From Candidatus Terraquivivens yellowstonensis (GTDB taxonomy: Archaea; Thermoproteota; Nitrososphaeria_A; Caldarchaeales; Wolframiiraptoraceae): a DNA stretch of 64,000 bases. Position 1 is the first letter of the stretch, and each line of letters begins with the position of its first letter. The position numbers and the translations under genes are program-made. Under the pieces are notes generated by a model that was given only the letters and a program-made list of their open reading frames with translations, was not told where the DNA came from and did no database searches. Positions 34,638-55,457 of this stretch are shown here, piece after piece. Location: contig JAKCEW010000001.1 in the NCBI GenBank assembly GCA_023539445.1, positions 62,001 to 126,000 of the forward strand. The letters are read 5' to 3'.

Positions 34638-34732
34638 TTCTCAAGCATCAAAGCCTTTTACTTATATAAAAACATAAATGGAAATGCGTAATCCTTTTTA
34701 GCAAGTTTTTGAAGATTCAACACGGAGTAACC

Positions 34733-35038
34733 ATGGCAATAGTTGGAGTAGAATGGATAATAATCATAATTATTATAGTGATATTTCTCATATGGGGTCC
34801 AAGTAAGATACCTGAACTGGCAAGGTCATTGGGTAAGGCCAAGAAAGAGTTTGAGAAAGCCATGAAGGAAGCCGAGGAGATTAAGCAACAGGCCGCCTCG
34901 AGCATAGACGTTCAGGCGTTGAAGAATGACGTAGATATGCTTATTGATATAGCGAAGAAACTAGGCATACCGACAGAAGGAAGGACAAGAGCGGAAATAT
35001 ACAACGACGTAATGACAAAACTCGGAAAGAGCACTTAA
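34733..35038 (+). CDS. tatA: Twin-arginine translocase subunit TatA
   Basis: 101 residues from ATG 34733, preceded by CGGAG. One N-terminal membrane helix (VGVEWIIIIIIIVIFLIWGP), the hinge GPSKIPELARSLG and a long amphipathic, charged helix (KAKKEFEKAMKEAEEIKQQA) give the TatA pattern. TatA multimerises to form the folded-protein translocation pore; tatC is not nearby. The C-terminal 50 residues form an extra conserved-looking helical segment. Confidence 0.9.
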   Translation: MAIVGVEWIIIIIIIVIFLIWGPSKIPELARSLGKAKKEFEKAMKEAEEIKQQAASSIDVQALKNDVDMLIDIAKKLGIPTEGRTRAEIYNDVMTKLGKST

Positions 35039-35241: not shown

Positions 35242-37462
35242 ATGCCCAGAGTGAAGAAGATCAGTGAAGTCGTTGACATTCTGAAAAATAAAGATAGTAT
35301 AAGGAACGTCGGCATCATAGCCCATACCTAAGGATGCTTTAATCCTTAGGGGGTAAGTAGATCACGGAAAGACAACCACGACGGATAGCCTTCTAGCGGC
35401 AGCGGGATTGCTTTCGCCATCTTTGGCCGGAAAAGCGTTAGCTCTGGATTATCTCGAAGAAGAACAGCAGCGCCAGATGACGATCAAGGCAGCTAACATT
35501 AGCCTCTACTACGAAATGGACTCGAAACCTTACATAATAAACCTCATAGACACTCCTGGACACGTCGACTTTTCTGGAAGGGTCACGAGGGCTTTAAGAG
35601 CAATAGACGGCGCAGTCGTTGTGGTGGACGCAGTCGAAGGTGTCATGACTCAGACTGAGACGGTGATAAGGCAGGCGGTGCAAGAAAGGGTCAAGCCGGT
35701 CCTATACATAAACAAAATCGATAGGCTGGTTAAGGAACTGAAGCTGACCCCTGAGAGGATTCAAGAGACGTTGGGTAGGATAATCATGGACGTCAACAGA
35801 CTGATAGAGATGTACGCTGAACCAGAGTTTAGGGATAAGTGGAAGGTTAGTATGGCCGCCGGCAGCGTGGCGATAGGTAGTGCAAAAGACAGGTGGGGAT
35901 TCACTTTACAACAAGCCCAGAAGAAGGGCATAAAGTTCAGCGATGTTATCAACGCGTTTGCGAAAGGCGATATAGATTGGCTCAGGGAAAACGCGCCGTT
36001 ACATGAAGCGATTCTCGAGATGGTAATAAACCACCATCCGCCTCCGCACGTAGCTCAAAAGTACAGAATACCGAAAATATGGAAGGGCCCGCTAGATAGC
36101 GATGTTGGTAAGGCCATGATGGAATGCGATGAAAACGGTCCTACGGTGATGGCCGTAACGGATGTAAAGGTTGACCCGCAAGCTGGTGTAGTGGTGACGG
36201 GTAGGTTATTCAGCGGTACCGTAAGCGATGGTAATGTATTGTTGCTGGTCGGAAGGAACATCACAGAAAGGGTCCAACAAGTTGCGGTATACATGGGCCC
36301 CTCGAGGGAAATAGTCGGTAGCCTGCCAGCCGGCAACATACCTGCGCTTTTAGGTATAGAAAATGCAAGGGCAGGTGACACACTCGCAACCGTAGATATG
36401 GTTCCATTCGAAACGTTGAAGTATGTGTCAGAACCTGTGGTTACGATATCGATAGAGCCGAAACATAGCAAGGATTTGCCGAAGCTTGTCGATTTCTTAA
36501 ACAAGTTGAGCATAGAAGACCCAACACTGGTCACAACAGTAAGACCTGAGACCGGCGAGTATCTGATAAGCGGTATGGGTACTTTACATCTAGAGATAGC
36601 TTTAACATGGATAGCTAAGGCGGGTCTGGAAGTAGTTCCGAGCAAACCGATAATACTATACAGAGAATCTGTCCAGAAAGTAGGGAAGGTCTTTGAAGGC
36701 AAATCGCCGAACAAACACAACAGGATATACATTAGGGCAGAACCGCTGGAACCTGAAGTGATCGAGTTGATAAGATCGGGTGAACTCTATGACGAAATGG
36801 ATAGGAAGCAGGTGGCGAAGATATTGCGAGACCATGGATGGGATGCTGAAGAAGCTAGGAACGTTTGGTGTATCGACCCTAGGGGCAACATACTCGTTGA
36901 CATGACGAAGGGAGCCCAGTATCTTCACGAATCTAAGATGATGATAATAGGCGGCTTCCAAAGGGTAGTCTCAGAAGGACCGCTTGCCGGAGAAGCCATG
37001 AGGGGGGTAAAGGCGGTTCTGGTTAACGTAGAACTACATGAAGACCCTGTACACAGAGGTTATGCCCAAATAGCGCCGGCGACGTGGAGGAGCCTCTATG
37101 CCAGCATACTGAGCGCAGACCCTGTGTTGTTAGAACCCATACTAAAGTTGGAGGCAAAGGTATCGCCTGAATTCATGGGCGCTGTGACTAGTGTCATAAG
37201 CTCGAAAAGGGGAAAGGTTCTAGATATAAGACAAGCTGAGTACATAACGATAATACAGGGTGAAATTCCGGCCGCTGAGACCTTTGACCTGAGCGAGGTC
37301 ATGAGGAGCGTTACGATGGGCAAGGCTTTCTGGGCGACCGAATTCTCTTCTTGGAAACCCGTTCCAGCGTCGATAAGGGATAAGGTCATAGCGGAGATAA
37401 GAAAGAGAAAGGGACTTCCGCCAGAAATACCGAAGATATCCGACTTTGTGGAAGAGGAATAG
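35242..37462 (+). CDS. fusA: Translation elongation factor EF-2, interrupted by a 31-nt BHB intron
   Basis: Exon 1 is 35242-35325 (28 codons, MPRVKKISEVVDIL...GIIAH) and exon 2 is 35357-37462 (VDHGKTTTTDSLLAAAG onward, 701 residues). Joined they give 729 residues, the normal length for archaeal EF-2, and restore AHVDHGKTTTTDSL, the GTPase P-loop. Other G motifs follow: TPGHVDF and NKIDR. The domain IV tip IAPATWRSLYA-type region and the C-terminal VTSVISSKRG are intact. EF-2 drives ribosomal translocation and is the diphthamide target. Unspliced mRNA would stop at codon 30 (His-Thr-stop). The long open exon 2 argues against a decayed gene. Confidence 0.92.
35326..35356 (+). other. Candidate archaeal mRNA intron with bulge-helix-bulge motif in EF-2
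   Basis: The 31 nt contain a perfect 9-bp hairpin (CCTAAGGAT 35327-35335, loop 35336-35341, ATCCTTAGG 35342-35350). A 4-bp central helix pairs exon GCCC (35320-35323) with intron GGGU (35351-35354). The 3-nt bulges are AUA (35324-35326) and AAG (35355-35357). Cutting after the second bulge base, as the archaeal splicing endonuclease does, gives exactly 35325|35326 and 35356|35357, the boundaries that protein homology demands. The outer helix is short (2 bp). Confidence 0.9.
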
Positions 37463-37471
37463 ACGCATAAT

Positions 37472-38119
37472 TTATCCTCTTCGCCCCAATTCTTCATTTG
37501 CTATCTTGTGGGCGGCGAGAATCGGCGACGGTATTTGGCCATTCTTTGTCAACCCCTTAACGATTTCTATGGCGGTGTTTAAGGATATTTTATGTCCAAC
37601 GCTAACGTACACGTTCTTGAATACTTCTTCACCAACAACGTCGCCATTCAACATCACGACCCTTCTGCCACTCACTCTTTTAACTTGACCACAAAGGAGT
37701 TTTTTCGCCACACCTATCGTTGGCTTATCCAGCACGATGCCGATGTAACATGCGATGCCAAACTTTCTGGGATGGAGTCTTCCGTTACCGTCGACGAGAA
37801 GCACATCAAAATCGCTCTTTAAACCTTTGATGGCATTAAGCATGGGTGGCGCCTCACGAAGGAAGAGAAGGCCTGGAACGTAAACATGTCGAACAATGCA
37901 TTTATGCTTGCTAACTTCAACTATGCGGCCGTCTTTGTCCTGTATGACGGCAACTGCGACGGCATTTTGGTTGGAATAAGCCACGTCAACCCCGCAGAAG
38001 AGCTCGTAACTCTCCAAGACGTCATGCTCGGAGACCATGCTTGCCATCTCCAACTGAAGCTTGATCGCCTCATCGTACGTGAGCGACTCAAGATTCAAAA
38101 GGTGCGCCATTTCCCTCAT
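37472..38119 (-). CDS. nfi: Endonuclease V
   Basis: 215 residues. FCGVDVAYSNQNAVAVAVIQ carries the first catalytic Asp, LLVDGNGRLHPRKFGIACY the second, and IGVAKKLLCG the conserved Lys region. The enzyme nicks DNA (and RNA) one base 3' of deaminated adenine (hypoxanthine). Family position of the Glu in FLREAPPML is also kept. It converges on EF-2 with only 9 nt between. Confidence 0.93.
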   Translation of the reverse strand: MREMAHLLNLESLTYDEAIKLQLEMASMVSEHDVLESYELFCGVDVAYSNQNAVAVAVIQDKDGRIVEVSKHKCIVRHVYVPGLLFLREAPPMLNAIKGLKSDFDVLLVDGNGRLHPRKFGIACYIGIVLDKPTIGVAKKLLCGQVKRVSGRRVVMLNGDVVGEEVFKNVYVSVGHKISLNTAIEIVKGLTKNGQIPSPILAAHKIANEELGRRG

Positions 38120-48280: not shown

Positions 48281-51200
48281 ATGCAGAAAGAGAAAGACCA
48301 CAAGCTTACCGTAGAAGATCTTTGGTACGTCGCTAGGAGTTTCATAGAAGAAGAAGGATTGGTTCAGCACCAAATCAGATCATACAACTATTTTGTTAGA
48401 AAGGGTCTCCAAGACCTTGTCAACTCTTTAGAAGTTCAGGAAATTAAGACGAAGCACGGAACGCTGACCTTCAAGTTTGGGACGATAGAAATAGGCAAAC
48501 CACGCATTATCGAAATAGACGGAACAATTAACGACAACATAACGCCTGCCGAATGTAGGCTTAGGAAGCTTACGTACGCGGCACCGTTATACGCTAAGAT
48601 GAATTTGTATTTAGACGGTAGGCTTCTGTCGTCGGAAAATGTAGAGGTTGGAATAATACCGGTGATGGTAAAGAGCGACATATGCCCATTATCAAAGATG
48701 ACCCACGAGGAGCTATTGGCTATAGGCGAAGACCCGATGGACCCAGGGGGTTATTTCATAATCAACGGCTCGGAGCGTGTAATAGTTGCTATAGAGGATC
48801 TAGCACCTAACAAGATACTCGTAACGGAAAAGGACGTTGGCGGTAAGCCACAATACTCCGCTGTCGTGCTATCTTCTGCGTTTGGCAGACAGGCTAAAGT
48901 CGAGGTTACATACAGAGAGGGTGGCCCGATAAGGGTTTTCTTCTCAAGAATCTACAAAGGCATACCCATCATAATCCTTCTCAGAGCATTGGGTATGACA
49001 AACGACAGAGAGATCGTAAACTTCGTATCACCGGTGAAGGAAGTCCAAGAACTGCTGGAGCTCCCCTTCAAGGAAGCAGAAGGAATAGAGACCGTCGAGG
49101 ATGCCCTGAAGTACATAGGCAACAAGATAGCATTTGGATATGCTGAAGAGTATAGGGTGCAAAGGGCTGAGCAGCTGATAGACAACGTTCTGCTACCGCA
49201 TATCGGGACGGATAAAGCATCGAGATATCTTAAGGCAATATTCTTATGCGACATGATGGGCAGGGTACTCGAGACCAGTTTGGGTCTTAGGAAGCCCAGT
49301 GATAAGGACCATTATGCCAACAAACGTGTGAAGCTCGCAACGCCCCTGTTAATGGAGCTGTATAGGATGGCATTCCTGAAGCTCATAAGGGATATAAGGT
49401 ATCAGCTGGAAAAGTTGCTAACCATAAGACAGCCGACATCGATATCAACGTTTGTCAGGCCAGGAATAGTTGCCGACTTCGTTAAGCATGCCTTTGCAAC
49501 CGGAAACTGGCCCGGTGGTAGGGTTGGTGTGACACAGTTGTTGAACAGGACCAACTACTTGGCGACATTGAGTCATCTGAGAAGGGTGCAGTCACCTTTG
49601 AGTAGAAGCCAGCCGCATTTTGAGGCAAGAGACCTCCACGGAACACATTGGGGTAGGATATGTCCTGCCGAGACGCCTGAAGGTAGTAACTGTGGTCTTG
49701 TCAAGAACCTAGCTCTATCGGCAGAGTTCTCATTCCCCATGAATAAGCGCGAAGTTTTGGACAAACTCTATACACTTGGTGTTATGCCCTTAAGCGAAGC
49801 CATAAACAGGAAAAAATTCTTGCCTGCGAAGGTATTCGTTGATGGTTTGTTGGTGGGCTTCCATCCCAATGGGCAGGAACTCGTCACAGATCTCAGAAAC
49901 CTGAGAAGGAATGGTGAGATAAACAATAACGTGAATGTTGCGCTTTATAATTACAAACACGTGCAAGAGGTCTGGATAAATACCGATGAGGGTAGGGTTA
50001 GAAGACCGTTAATAATTGTCGAAAAAGGTGTGCCGAGACTAAACCGCAATCATGTAGAGGCTATAAAGAATAGAATATCTAGGTTCAGAGACCTCGTGTC
50101 AATGGGCATCATCGAATTCTTGGATGCGGAGGAAGAGGAGAATGCGTTTGTCGCATTAACGCCGGACGCTGTAACGCCTGAGCATACTCATATGGAGATA
50201 TCTCCTTACTTGATGTTAGGCATCGTTGCATCAATAATTCCGTACGCTCAACACAACCAGTCTCCAAGGAACGTTTATGAGTGTGCTATGGGAAAGCAGG
50301 CCTTAGGCTTCTTTGCCTCGAATTACGAGATAAGAACGGACTCTAGGATGCACCTGTTGGTCTATCCCCAGAAGCCCCTCGTTACGACAAGATCCGTAGA
50401 TTTGATAGGCCTTAACAATAGACCGATAGGCCAGAATATGGTGGTCGCGATACTGTCAGCTCAGGGCTACAACATGGAAGATGCCGTCGTACTCAATAAA
50501 TCGTCCGTAGAGAGAGGGTTAGGTCTTTCCTTAAGTTACAGAACGTATGAGGTAGAATCGAGACAATACCTTGGTGGTCAGAAGGATAAATTTGGTATAC
50601 CCGAACCCAGCGTAAGAGGCTATAAGGGTGAGCAATACTACAGAATATTGGACGCGGACGGTCTAGCCCATATAGAGGCCGACGTGAGCGGGAATATGGT
50701 AATAGTTGGTGTCATAAGCCCGCCGAGGTTCATGGAGGAATACACGCGTGCACCGGCAAGGGAAATGGTTTGGAGGGATGCATCCGAAGTTGTTAGGCAA
50801 TCTGAGAGCGGCGTCGTCGACCAAATATTCATAACTAGGACGGATGAGGGTAACAAGCTTGTAAAGGCAAGGGTAAGGACCACGTGCTTTGTTGAGATAG
50901 GTGACAAGTTTTCATCGAGGCACGGACAGAAGGGCGTCGTTGGTATGCTCTTCCCGCAAGAGGATATGCCATACACTGAGGATGGTATAGTGCCCGATCT
51001 GATAATAAACCCGCATGCATTCCCCTCGAGAATGACAATCGGTCAACTTATCGAGAGTATAGCAGGAAAGGTCGCCGCTATAAAGGCTGAACCAGTTGAT
51101 GGAACGCCCTTCCTTGGAAAGAAGCTTGAGGAATTAAGGGCAGAACTTGAGGCTTTAGGTTTCAAGAGCTCAGGGACATCTGTGATGTATGATGGCTTGA

Positions 51201-51637
51201 CTGGTAAGAAGTTTGAAGCTGAAATCTTTATCGGTGTGGTTTACTATCAGAGATTACACCACCTCGTCAGGGATAAAATACACGCGAGAGCACGTGGACA
51301 GGTGCAGCTATTGACTCGGCAGCCGACTGAGGGAAGGGCTAGGGGTGGTGGTTTGAAGTTTGGAGAGATGGAGCGTGACTGCCTAGTCGCACATGGAGCT
51401 GCCTACTTGCTTTTGGATAGATTACTCGAGCAATCCGACAAATACACCGCATACTTCTGTGAAAAATGTGGCTTACCTGCCTACTACGACCTCAAACAAG
51501 AGCGTTTTGTATGCAAAGTGTGCGGAAAGGAGGCAAGCATAAAGCCCGTCGTTATGTCGTATGCGTTCTACCTTCTACTGAACGAGTTGTTAAGCATGTG
51601 TATTTATCCAAAAGTGAAATTGGAGGAGTTGGTGTAG
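48281..51637 (+). CDS. rpoB: RNA polymerase subunit B (unsplit)
   Basis: 1118 residues in one chain; many Euryarchaeota split it. EEEGLVQHQIRSYNYFVRKG opens the protein; CPAETPEGSNCGLVKNLALS, QGYNMEDAVVLNKSSVERGL, and GDKFSSRHGQKGVVGMLFPQ are the conserved catalytic-centre regions. A zinc ribbon near the C-terminus has CEKCGLPAYY and CKVCG. With RpoA it forms the polymerase cleft. Ends 1 nt before the rpoA start. Confidence 0.98.
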   Translation: MQKEKDHKLTVEDLWYVARSFIEEEGLVQHQIRSYNYFVRKGLQDLVNSLEVQEIKTKHGTLTFKFGTIEIGKPRIIEIDGTINDNITPAECRLRKLTYAAPLYAKMNLYLDGRLLSSENVEVGIIPVMVKSDICPLSKMTHEELLAIGEDPMDPGGYFIINGSERVIVAIEDLAPNKILVTEKDVGGKPQYSAVVLSSAFGRQAKVEVTYREGGPIRVFFSRIYKGIPIIILLRALGMTNDREIVNFVSPVKEVQELLELPFKEAEGIETVEDALKYIGNKIAFGYAEEYRVQRAEQLIDNVLLPHIGTDKASRYLKAIFLCDMMGRVLETSLGLRKPSDKDHYANKRVKLATPLLMELYRMAFLKLIRDIRYQLEKLLTIRQPTSISTFVRPGIVADFVKHAFATGNWPGGRVGVTQLLNRTNYLATLSHLRRVQSPLSRSQPHFEARDLHGTHWGRICPAETPEGSNCGLVKNLALSAEFSFPMNKREVLDKLYTLGVMPLSEAINRKKFLPAKVFVDGLLVGFHPNGQELVTDLRNLRRNGEINNNVNVALYNYKHVQEVWINTDEGRVRRPLIIVEKGVPRLNRNHVEAIKNRISRFRDLVSMGIIEFLDAEEEENAFVALTPDAVTPEHTHMEISPYLMLGIVASIIPYAQHNQSPRNVYECAMGKQALGFFASNYEIRTDSRMHLLVYPQKPLVTTRSVDLIGLNNRPIGQNMVVAILSAQGYNMEDAVVLNKSSVERGLGLSLSYRTYEVESRQYLGGQKDKFGIPEPSVRGYKGEQYYRILDADGLAHIEADVSGNMVIVGVISPPRFMEEYTRAPAREMVWRDASEVVRQSESGVVDQIFITRTDEGNKLVKARVRTTCFVEIGDKFSSRHGQKGVVGMLFPQEDMPYTEDGIVPDLIINPHAFPSRMTIGQLIESIAGKVAAIKAEPVDGTPFLGKKLEELRAELEALGFKSSGTSVMYDGLTGKKFEAEIFIGVVYYQRLHHLVRDKIHARARGQVQLLTRQPTEGRARGGGLKFGEMERDCLVAHGAAYLLLDRLLEQSDKYTAYFCEKCGLPAYYDLKQERFVCKVCGKEASIKPVVMSYAFYLLLNELLSMCIYPKVKLEELV

Positions 51638-51638
51638 T

Positions 51639-54600
51639 ATGTCCTACAGGGGTTCTGTGGCCGCTATAAAGTTTGGCATACTTTCGCCCGACCTCATCAG
51701 GAGAATGTCCGTAGCTGAAATACAAAACCCCGATACATACGGCGATGACGGTCTTCCGATACCCACGGGTGTAATGGATCCAAGGTTGGGGACCCTAGAG
51801 CCCGGCCAACGTTGTAAGACGTGCGGTAACACTTACCTTGGATGTCCAGGGCACTTCGGACACATAGAATTACCGGTTCCCGTTATACACGTTGGCTTTG
51901 TCAAAACTATACATACGCTCCTAAAAGCAACCTGCAGGTCATGTGGTAGGATACTTTTAAACGATGAAGAGATAAAGAGCTTTAAAGAAGAGTTAGAAAA
52001 GGAGAAACAGTCCGGGAGACCATACAGGCATATTTACTTCAAAGTAATACAGAAGGCCACATCGACACAGACTTGTCCGCACTGCGGCGAGAAGCAGCTA
52101 AAGATCGAATTGGAGAAGCCGACGACGTTTATAGAAGCGGCGGAGTCGGAGCTTGTAAGACTTCCAGCAAACGTTGTCAGAGCTAGGCTAGAGAGAATAC
52201 CTGACGACGACCTAGTGTTGCTGGACATAGATCCTAAGAGCGCAAGACCAGAGTGGATGGTACTAACGGTCTTACCCGTACCGCCTGTTTATGTAAGGCC
52301 ATCCATCACGCTTGAATCGGGTTTCAGGTCAGAAGATGACCTGACCCACAAGTTGGTAGACATACTCAGGGTTGCTCAAAGGCTTAGAGAAAACATAGCC
52401 GCCGGGTCTCCATCACCAGTCATAATGGAATTGTCAGACCTTCTCCAGTATCATGTAACAACTTACATTAATAATGAGGCGGTCGGAATATCGCCGTCTG
52501 TTCATAGGTCCGGCCGCGTACTAAAGACATTGGCGCAGAGATTGAAAGGCAAGGAAGGCAGGTTCAGGTTAAACCTTTCCGGCAAGAGGGTCGACTTCTC
52601 CGCCAGAACTGTCATATCCCCAGATCCCAACATTGGAATAAACGAGGTCGGAGTTCCCATAGAAATAGCGATGCAACTTACCGTACCAGAAAAAGTTACT
52701 GTATGGAACATTGAAAGATTAAGGGAATATGTAAGGAACGGTCCGGATAAGTATCCGGGCGCCAAGTACATAATCAGGCCGGATGGTAAGACCATAAGGC
52801 TAAAACTTGCGCACGATTTAAACGAGCTGGCAAATGCTCTAGAGCCTGGCTACATAGTCGAGCGGCACCTCATCGACGGAGATATTGTGTTGTTCAACAG
52901 GCAGCCTTCGCTTCATAGAATGTCAATAATGGCCCATATAGTAAAGGTCCTTCCTTACAAGACATTCCGTCTCAATCTTGCGGTTTGCACACCATATAAC
53001 GCGGACTTCGACGGTGACGAGATGAACCTACACGTTCCACAGAGCGAAGAAGCCCAAACCGAAGCTCGAATACTACTTTTAGTACAGAATAATATAATAT
53101 CTCCGCGCCACGGTACGCCCATAATCGGAGCCATTAGAGACTTCCTCACAGCTACCTACTTGTTGACAAAGGATGATACTTTGCTCAGCCTAAAAGAGCT
53201 GTCCTATTTGCTCTCAGCGATAGGGTATGACGGTGAGCTACCAGAGCCAGTGGTAACTACGCCGCAACCGTTATGGAGTGGCAAGCAGGTATTCAGCCTA
53301 TTACTTCCAAAGGACTTTAGTCACAAATTCAGATCTACCTTTATGCCCGAGGAACCAGTCATAATACAGGATGGTAAGCTCATAAAAGGTGTGATAGATA
53401 AAGGTGGCATAGGCGTAGAGAAAGCAAACAACATAATACATAGGTTAGTAAGAGACTACGGGCCTGATGTAGCTAGGGAATTCTTAGACAGAGTAGTGAG
53501 GCTTGCTAACACCTATCTGCGTATAAGGGGCTTCACTTTCACCATAGATGACCTAACGGTGCCAGCTGAAATTTACCGAGAAATATCCAAACTTTTTGTA
53601 AAGATGGATGAAGAATTCAATAAACTTAAAGCGGACTATGAAAAGGGTAAAGCTCCTGTTTATCCAGGCGAGACGCCTGAACAATCATTCGAATCTGTAA
53701 TCTTATCGTTACTTTCAAAGACTAGGGATACTGCAGGCAAGATTGTGAGGCAAAGCATACCTCCATCGAATAATGCTCTGATAATGATAAAGACTGGAGC
53801 GAGGGGCACATCACTTAACATCGACCAAATGATAGCTGTCGTCGGTCAACAGGCGGTTAGGAGGGAAAGGATCAAGAGAGGATACATGGACAGGGTTCTA
53901 ACATTCTTTAAGCCAAAAGATCTGTCACCTAGGGCTAGAGGCTTTGTTTATAACTCGTTCATGAACGGCTTAGACCCGCTAGAATTCTTCTTCCATATGG
54001 TGGGTGGAAGGGACGGTCTTGTTGACACGGCGGTGAGAACCCAGCAAAGCGGTTACATGCAGCGTAGATTGATAAACGCTCTAGAATCGCTGTACGTTGA
54101 GTACGACGGCACGGTAAGGACAACGGACGAAAAGAGAATAATACAATTCCAGTACGGTGAGGACGGTGTTGACCCTGCTAAGAGTGAACATGGACAGCCA
54201 GTTAACCCGACTCTGATCATAGAAAAGTTCATGAAGAGCTTGCCAGCAGACAAGCCCGCCTCCAACGAGTATATAATGTCAAAGTCTGAATGGTACAAGA
54301 AACTCATGCCTGAAAAGATTGTTGAAGAGTTGGCGAACGAACTCATAAAAGCGAAAGCTTCAGAACGTGTAGTTGATAACTCCTTTGAAGAAGCATATAG
54401 GGTTTATTTGAATTCTAGAGTAGAACCCGGTGATGCCGTAGGGGTCGTGACAGCTCAGTCAATAGGTGAACCGGGAACCCAGCTTACACTTAGGACGTTC
54501 CACTTTGCGGGTGTTAGGGAACAAAGCATACTGCTTGGTTTGCCAAGGTTAATTGAGATAGTCGACGCCCGTAAGGTCCCCTCCACACCTATAATGAGAA

Positions 54601-55457
54601 TATATCTCCAGAAGGAATTCGCAAAAGATAAGGCCAAAGCGCAAAAAATCGCAAACCAAATACAACACACGGCTCTCAAAGAAATAGTTTCCGAAGTGGT
54701 TATAAACTATAAGCGCGGTATTCTAACCGTTACGTTAGACACGGATGCGATGCATGAAAGGGGTGTCACTCTAAGTGACGTGAAAAATGCCCTGAAAGCT
54801 TACAAGCCAGAAGTGAAGGACACGAATATCGTCATCTTAAAGCCATCCGAGGACAGCGTACAAGCGCTCGAGAAGATTAGAGACAAAATACTGATGGACG
54901 ACAAAATGACGGTCAAGGGAATTAAGAAAATAACGAAAGCTCTGGTTGTACAGGAAAATGATGAGTACGTAATACTAACGGAGGGCTCAAACCTAAGAGA
55001 GGTTGTAAAGGTGCCTGGTGTTGATGCCACTAGGGTTATTACGAACGACATACATGAGATTGCAGAAGTCTTAGGAATAGAGGCTGCAAGGAACGCGATA
55101 ATAAACGAGGCGAAGAACGTGCTACGCGAGCAAGGATTAGACGTCGACATTAGGCATCTTATACTCTTGGCAGATATGATGACAGTCAGTGGTAGCGTAA
55201 GGCAGGTAGGTAGGCATGGTGTGATTAAGCTAAAAGAGAGCGTACTTGCTAGGGCGGCCTTTGAAATAAGCGTTCAAGTACTGCTTGATGCAGCGACCAG
55301 AGGTGAGGTGGATTACTTGAAAGGTAACGTTGAAAGGATACTTATGGGAAAGGAGATACCGGTGGGTACGGGCATGGTATCGTTGCTGATGGTGCATCAA
55401 GCTAACCAGTCGAATAACGAGGTCGGTGATAAGAATGAACATAAGGAAAGAACTTGA
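51639..55457 (+). CDS. rpoA: RNA polymerase subunit A, unsplit (A' plus A'')
   Basis: 1272 residues. N-terminal zinc motifs CKTCGNTYLGCPGHFGHIEL and CRSCG/CPHCG, catalytic NADFDGDEMNLHVPQS around residue 454-469, bridge-helix region GLDPLEFFFHMVGGRDGLVD, then without any stop the A'' portion starting near KLMPEKIVEELANELIKAKA (about residue 885) with VEPGDAVGVVTAQSIGEPGT. Crenarchaeota and Euryarchaeota encode A' and A'' separately; the one-chain form is known from Thaumarchaeota and Caldiarchaeum. Overlaps the eL30 gene by 23 nt. Confidence 0.98.
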   Translation: MSYRGSVAAIKFGILSPDLIRRMSVAEIQNPDTYGDDGLPIPTGVMDPRLGTLEPGQRCKTCGNTYLGCPGHFGHIELPVPVIHVGFVKTIHTLLKATCRSCGRILLNDEEIKSFKEELEKEKQSGRPYRHIYFKVIQKATSTQTCPHCGEKQLKIELEKPTTFIEAAESELVRLPANVVRARLERIPDDDLVLLDIDPKSARPEWMVLTVLPVPPVYVRPSITLESGFRSEDDLTHKLVDILRVAQRLRENIAAGSPSPVIMELSDLLQYHVTTYINNEAVGISPSVHRSGRVLKTLAQRLKGKEGRFRLNLSGKRVDFSARTVISPDPNIGINEVGVPIEIAMQLTVPEKVTVWNIERLREYVRNGPDKYPGAKYIIRPDGKTIRLKLAHDLNELANALEPGYIVERHLIDGDIVLFNRQPSLHRMSIMAHIVKVLPYKTFRLNLAVCTPYNADFDGDEMNLHVPQSEEAQTEARILLLVQNNIISPRHGTPIIGAIRDFLTATYLLTKDDTLLSLKELSYLLSAIGYDGELPEPVVTTPQPLWSGKQVFSLLLPKDFSHKFRSTFMPEEPVIIQDGKLIKGVIDKGGIGVEKANNIIHRLVRDYGPDVAREFLDRVVRLANTYLRIRGFTFTIDDLTVPAEIYREISKLFVKMDEEFNKLKADYEKGKAPVYPGETPEQSFESVILSLLSKTRDTAGKIVRQSIPPSNNALIMIKTGARGTSLNIDQMIAVVGQQAVRRERIKRGYMDRVLTFFKPKDLSPRARGFVYNSFMNGLDPLEFFFHMVGGRDGLVDTAVRTQQSGYMQRRLINALESLYVEYDGTVRTTDEKRIIQFQYGEDGVDPAKSEHGQPVNPTLIIEKFMKSLPADKPASNEYIMSKSEWYKKLMPEKIVEELANELIKAKASERVVDNSFEEAYRVYLNSRVEPGDAVGVVTAQSIGEPGTQLTLRTFHFAGVREQSILLGLPRLIEIVDARKVPSTPIMRIYLQKEFAKDKAKAQKIANQIQHTALKEIVSEVVINYKRGILTVTLDTDAMHERGVTLSDVKNALKAYKPEVKDTNIVILKPSEDSVQALEKIRDKILMDDKMTVKGIKKITKALVVQENDEYVILTEGSNLREVVKVPGVDATRVITNDIHEIAEVLGIEAARNAIINEAKNVLREQGLDVDIRHLILLADMMTVSGSVRQVGRHGVIKLKESVLARAAFEISVQVLLDAATRGEVDYLKGNVERILMGKEIPVGTGMVSLLMVHQANQSNNEVGDKNEHKERT

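Follow-up and report, generated by a model that had tools for sequence, protein, structure and literature searches.

The window, a stretch of 64,000 nucleotides, came from the genome of a thermophilic archaeon of the genus Candidatus Terraquivivens (Caldarchaeales, 'Aigarchaeota') and contained an EF-2 gene whose reading frame (ATG at 35242) was broken after 28 codons ending in NVGIIAH. A 31-nt insert, ACCTAAGGATGCTTTAATCCTTAGGGGGTAA, separated IAH from VDHGKT (Table 1). Read without splicing, the frame ended at an in-frame TAA, the second intron codon, and in the list of open reading frames EF-2 began only at TTG 35408, with the P-loop missing. Without the insert, CAT was joined to GTA GAT CAC GGA AAG, and the resulting protein of 729 aa matched the aEF-2 model TIGR00490 with 861.7 bits (cut-off 738.45) over positions 2–720 of 720. 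The sequence-only reading, which had placed an insert with a stop and a frameshift after codon 28, was correct. It had also named a second intact EF-2 gene as an observation that would refute an intron; the assembly, 1.16 Mb in size and 95.8% complete, yielded none.

Upstream of EF-2, the window encoded a TatA-like protein (34709–35038) and downstream, on the opposite strand, endonuclease V (37472–38119), neither with a tie to splicing. Elsewhere in the window, a single 1272-aa ORF (51639–55457) followed a 1118-aa ORF (48281–51637); the position and size of these ORFs suggest a putative fused RNA polymerase A'/A'' subunit.

Table 1. Positions of the EF-2 exons, the intron and its structural parts in the window, and loci of aIF5B introns at the homologous codon.
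Feature	Position	Strand	Basis
EF-2 exon 1, 28 codons, MPRVKK...NVGIIAH	35242–35325	+	Sequence; TIGR00490 for the joined protein
BHB intron, 31 nt, phase 0; in-frame stop at 35329–35331	35326–35356	+	Sequence, fold
EF-2 exon 2, VDHGKTTTTDS...EEE, stop	35357–37462	+	Sequence; TIGR00490
Outer exon helix, 5' strand AUC-A-UA, pairs with 35358–35362 (UAGAU); not conserved in family f4	35314–35319	+	Sequence, partly fold
Central helix, 5' strand GCCC, exonic (GCC of Ala27 and C of His28)	35320–35323	+	Fold; covaries with 35351–35354
5' bulge AUA, predicted cut 35325/35326	35324–35326	+	Fold
Intron hairpin, 5' arm CCUAAGGAU	35327–35335	+	Fold
Hairpin loop GCUUUA, freely variable across Terraquivivens species	35336–35341	+	Comparison
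Intron hairpin, 3' arm AUCCUUAGG	35342–35350	+	Fold
Central helix, 3' strand GGGU, intronic	35351–35354	+	Fold, covariation
3' bulge AAG, predicted cut 35356/35357	35355–35357	+	Fold
aIF5B introns between H and VDHGKT; f4, 29–30 nt; f39, 36 nt; f19, 17–18 nt; f23, 23 nt	L162:1257–1330, L161:1228–1302, L163:1292–1378, L172, L173, L174		

Fold and borders of the EF-2 insert

The intron RNA folded with its flanks into a canonical bulge-helix-bulge (BHB) motif (MFE −21.5 kcal/mol, z −2.85), with a 4-bp central helix (GCCC/GGGU), two 3-nt bulges (AUA and AAG) and a 9-bp hairpin. Exon bases further out could pair as AUCaUA/UAGAU around a single bulged A; this outer helix was read from the sequence and was partly present in the fold. 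The BHB cut rule places each cut between the second and third bulge bases, and applying it gave exactly the full-length aEF-2. Both the fold and the borders had been claimed in the sequence-only reading; the fold was as described and was backed by the covariation given below, and the borders held exactly.

A BHB motif by itself is weak evidence for an intron. First-order Markov sequence contained 0–4 strict BHBs with an 8-bp stem per strand in 64 kb, compared with 2 + 5 in the window, and 21 looser BHBs in the window (6-bp stem, no outer helix) joined two open frames. Neither count discriminates. The chance of a BHB falling on the exact border required by the protein was roughly 2/64000. The EF-2 intron was judged to be real since its BHB lay on the exact protein border, its removal restored a universal motif and it was conserved in relatives.

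Interruptions in related EF-2 and aIF5B genes

A search of related EF-2 genes, as proposed in the sequence-only reading, returned insertions at the same codon, between H and VDHGKT (site A), in five of the six Terraquivivens genomes and in two further families. The Terraquivivens introns measured 30–33 nt; their stems and bulges were invariant, and their loops were GCUUUA, CCCAUCA, CCGUAACA, GACGCUACAA and GCAUAGCA. Another family of the Caldarchaeales (f4, two genomes) carried at this codon an unrelated 33-nt hairpin with matching architecture (GCGC-AUA...GCGU-AAG) and, as read from the sequence, no outer exon helix. The third family (f28, genome G109) had a 30-nt insert whose BHB was slightly imperfect, with a G-A mismatch in place of the outermost pair of the central helix. 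Across Terraquivivens and f4, 98.8% of the cells were paired and 9 of the 12 pairs showed double changes, with slid controls reaching at most 55%.

A second EF-2 site (site B) was located approximately seven codons upstream of site A, inside the Asn codon of LIR-N-IGIIAH, in phase 1. The survey covered only Thermoproteota among the phyla; there, BHB introns of 26–63 nt were present at site B in 17 of 398 genomes, representing nine families, and also in two more named records (L065 and L078). In the aligned sequences, the cut rule restored R-N-(I/F)-G exactly. Paired cells amounted to 98.9%, double changes were observed in 7 of 11 pairs, and the slid controls stayed at or below 59%. Within the central helix, the wobble base of the Ile codon (ATC/ATT) and the intron base changed together in 16/16 cases (C-G in 10, U-A in 6). 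At both sites, the covariation counts include inherited changes and are inflated by relatedness. One genome (G359, family f41; L168:613–726, reverse strand) had an enlarged site-B loop with TTAA/TTAG-type repeats, giving a 63-nt intron in which the stem was kept.

Some apparently split EF-2 genes were rejected. In CP070773, a Bathyarchaeota 'chromosome' (L078 and L087), the EF-2 pieces were 340 kb apart and ended in runs of N, indicating a scaffold or assembly problem and not a split gene. The genomes of family f5 with two EF-2 matches mostly had two separate EF-2-like genes. Two EF-2-like genes per genome, one of them often diverged, were observed in G063, G111, G123, G135, G150, G200, G210 and G290 (families f5 and f14).

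The paralogous aIF5B genes were searched with a model built from the introns between H and VDHGKT. In six genomes from four families, aIF5B was interrupted at the homologous position, VVVLGH/VDHGKT (Table 1). The f19 introns were near the smallest size reported for cbf5 (16 bp), and the f39 intron had a G-A mismatch at the same place in its central helix as the f28 EF-2 insert. Given the mismatches in f28 and f39 and the missing outer helix in f4, an endonuclease with relaxed specificity must be assumed there. Family f19 had a second aIF5B intron of 18–20 nt in switch I (GGI/T; reverse strand of L172 and L173), roughly 70 nt 3' of the VDHGKT codons. Cutting GGGA-UA/A...UCCU-AG/A restored GGITQHVGAS, and the stems differed between the two genomes and still paired. 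Three further model matches (L165, L166 and L167) were weak and were not introns. In the genome of the window, the aIF5B and EF-1A genes showed no interruption. In nearly all of the related introns, the borders obtained with the BHB cut rule restored the protein exactly. The suggestion in the sequence-only reading that the choice of target recalls parasitic introns was strengthened, with other EF-2 genes and paralogous aIF5B genes interrupted at homologous codons.

In the EF-2 tree, site A occurred in f4 and Terraquivivens with intronless lineages between them, and site B occurred in at least four places. One old origin followed by losses and several gains are both possible. T. tikiterensis was the one intronless Terraquivivens, and its EF-2 gene was a mosaic (L028:2771–3400). 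The 5' flank, exon 1 and the first 300 nt of exon 2 agreed to 51%, 86% and 79–85% with Pelearchaeum, versus 23%, 65–67% and 69–75% with Terraquivivens; the remainder was Terraquivivens-like. The simplest reading is a loss of the intron by replacement of the 5' end, with a chimeric contig not excluded. Upstream of this gene were an ORF resembling a transposase and small ORFs resembling toxin-antitoxin genes.

Splicing machinery, in-frame stops and alternative explanations

The genome encoded two EndA-family proteins (PF01974) of 189 aa (L098) and 195 aa (L099), both containing the N-terminal and the C-terminal EndA domain, and one RtcB (PF01139; L100). Judged from their sequences, the two EndA proteins are consistent with subunits of an (alpha-beta)2 enzyme. 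By eye only, the expected Tyr/His/Lys were retained in the 189-aa subunit and not in the 195-aa subunit. Based on the exact borders, the covariation, the conservation at the same codon in five of six genomes and the presence of EndA and RtcB genes, we are confident that the EF-2 insert is a BHB pre-mRNA intron of the cbf5 kind, processed by EndA and RtcB, although cleavage and ligation are inferred in the absence of RNA or protein data. The EF-2 transcript would fold such that the exonic GCCC pairs with the intronic GGGU, leaving a 3-nt bulge on each side. The heteromeric tRNA-splicing endonuclease EndA would then cut both bulges by the rule given above, and RtcB would probably join the exons, restoring IAH-VDHGKT. 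We further infer that the introns may persist as selfish-like insertions, since imprecise loss within an invariant motif would presumably be lethal.

All 32 tabulated introns contained a stop in the exon 1 frame, usually among the first three codons and irrespective of intron length modulo 3. An early in-frame stop was present in 18 of 18 lineage representatives, whereas approximately 7.5 would be expected for random introns matched for length, hairpin geometry and composition (the probabilities multiply to 2e-9). This test was devised post hoc, and the lineages are only partly independent. We infer selection against reading through the unspliced P-loop. Since the intron supplies the early stop, unspliced EF-2 mRNA would yield only a 29-residue peptide.

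The excess of early stops, the 5'-proximal position at two EF-2 sites and the presence of introns in two translation GTPases would also fit an intron that additionally acts as a switch, with splicing efficiency tuning the synthesis of EF-2 (and aIF5B), for example through feedback between exon 1 translation and BHB folding. However, the intron is absent from close relatives (T. tikiterensis and the other members of the family), the stops may merely serve to avoid making EF-2 with a disrupted P-loop, which would be harmful, and there are no expression data. We consider such a switch unlikely. If splicing is real, EF-2 depends on the splicing enzymes, but this does not imply regulation; the link between translation capacity and tRNA processing that was inferred in the sequence-only reading is, in the sense of regulation, a hypothesis.

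Translational bypassing, in which ribosomes would hop over the 31 nt with the hairpin aiding the hop, has a precedent in phage T4 gene 60, where a stop closely follows the take-off codon and a hairpin lies within the gap. The EF-2 gene has both an in-frame stop soon after the would-be take-off codon and a gap hairpin. Yet the landing codon matched the take-off codon in none of the 32 tabulated introns: CAT/CAC was opposed by TAA, ATG, TTA, AAA and TAG, and CGA/CGT by AAA, AAT, AAG, GAA, GAG, ATG and AAC. The site-B introns are moreover in phase 1, and the conserved 3-nt bulges and the 4-bp helix between exon and intron would be left unexplained. Bypassing was rejected for lack of matching take-off and landing codons, and we give it very little credence. 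That the insert is an assembly error, or the EF-2 gene a decayed pseudogene, is the least credible explanation. One could cite for it that the source is a metagenome-assembled genome and that one scaffold (L078/L087) has true N gaps inside EF-2, but the same insert was found in five species-level genomes with an otherwise intact exon 2 of 701 codons, the gene was the sole EF-2 found in this nearly complete genome, and stems were conserved while loops varied; an artefact, also named as a refutation in the sequence-only reading, is excluded by same-site inserts in independent genomes.

Relation to known introns and implications

BHB introns in pre-mRNA have been described before. What appears to be new is the set of genes, the repeated occurrence at homologous codons in paralogues and the excess of stops. 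The cbf5 pre-mRNA intron of Crenarchaeota was reportedly described by Watanabe in 2002. It is a BHB intron of 16–44 bp cut by heteromeric EndA, its gain and loss are lineage-specific, and it was suggested to owe its origin to the relaxed specificity of that enzyme (Yokobori 2009; PMC2738675). The EF-2 intron resembles it as a very short BHB intron at a catalytic-motif codon of an RNA- or translation-related gene in the presence of heteromeric EndA (PMC2738675), gained and lost in a lineage-specific way, located in the coding frame and requiring removal for a functional product. Unlike in cbf5, the genes are aEF-2 (TIGR00490) and aIF5B, the sites are in the GTPase G1/G2 motifs of paralogues, and the hosts belong to the Caldarchaeales and several uncultured Thermoproteota families. 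While splicing was shown experimentally for cbf5, it is inferred for EF-2 and aIF5B. The cbf5 paper does not address an in-frame stop excess; the term 'stop codon' occurs 0 times in it (PMC2738675).

The HVO_1309 mRNA of Haloferax volcanii has a BHB intron in its 5' UTR, and in that 2020 study cbf5 was the only other BHB intron then reported in archaeal mRNA (PMC7714728). It is an mRNA substrate of EndA (PMC7714728), as is inferred for the EF-2 intron; it is untranslated and interrupts no frame, whereas the EF-2 intron breaks the frame. Many archaeal rRNA introns encode homing endonucleases (PMC2738675), for which the EF-2 and aIF5B introns are far too short. The BHB introns of archaeal tRNA and rRNA share the motif and, by inference, the enzymes with the EF-2 intron but are not in mRNA. 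Group I and group II introns and inteins favour invariant motifs of essential genes; in contrast to these, the 31 nt of the EF-2 intron exclude a catalytic RNA core or a protein. No BHB intron in EF-2 or aIF5B was found to be reported in a literature search from which most subscription journals were outside coverage.

A broader hypothesis, which we put forward only tentatively, is that BHB introns are small insertions that have repeatedly colonised the invariant GTP-binding motifs of translation GTPases (G1 and the upstream strand in EF-2; G1 and G2 in aIF5B), perhaps via reverse splicing or recombination between paralogues, and that were selected for in-frame stops silencing unspliced mRNA. 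Production of these GTPases would then depend on, and may be regulated through, the tRNA-splicing enzymes. The comparison of genomes shows EF-2 and aIF5B to be split in or near GTP-binding motifs in about a dozen families, and annotation that overlooks the introns treats such genes as truncated or frameshifted. They provide many natural replicates of archaeal intron gain, loss and tolerance under coupled transcription-translation, and the in-frame stop excess makes selection on unspliced mRNA directly testable.
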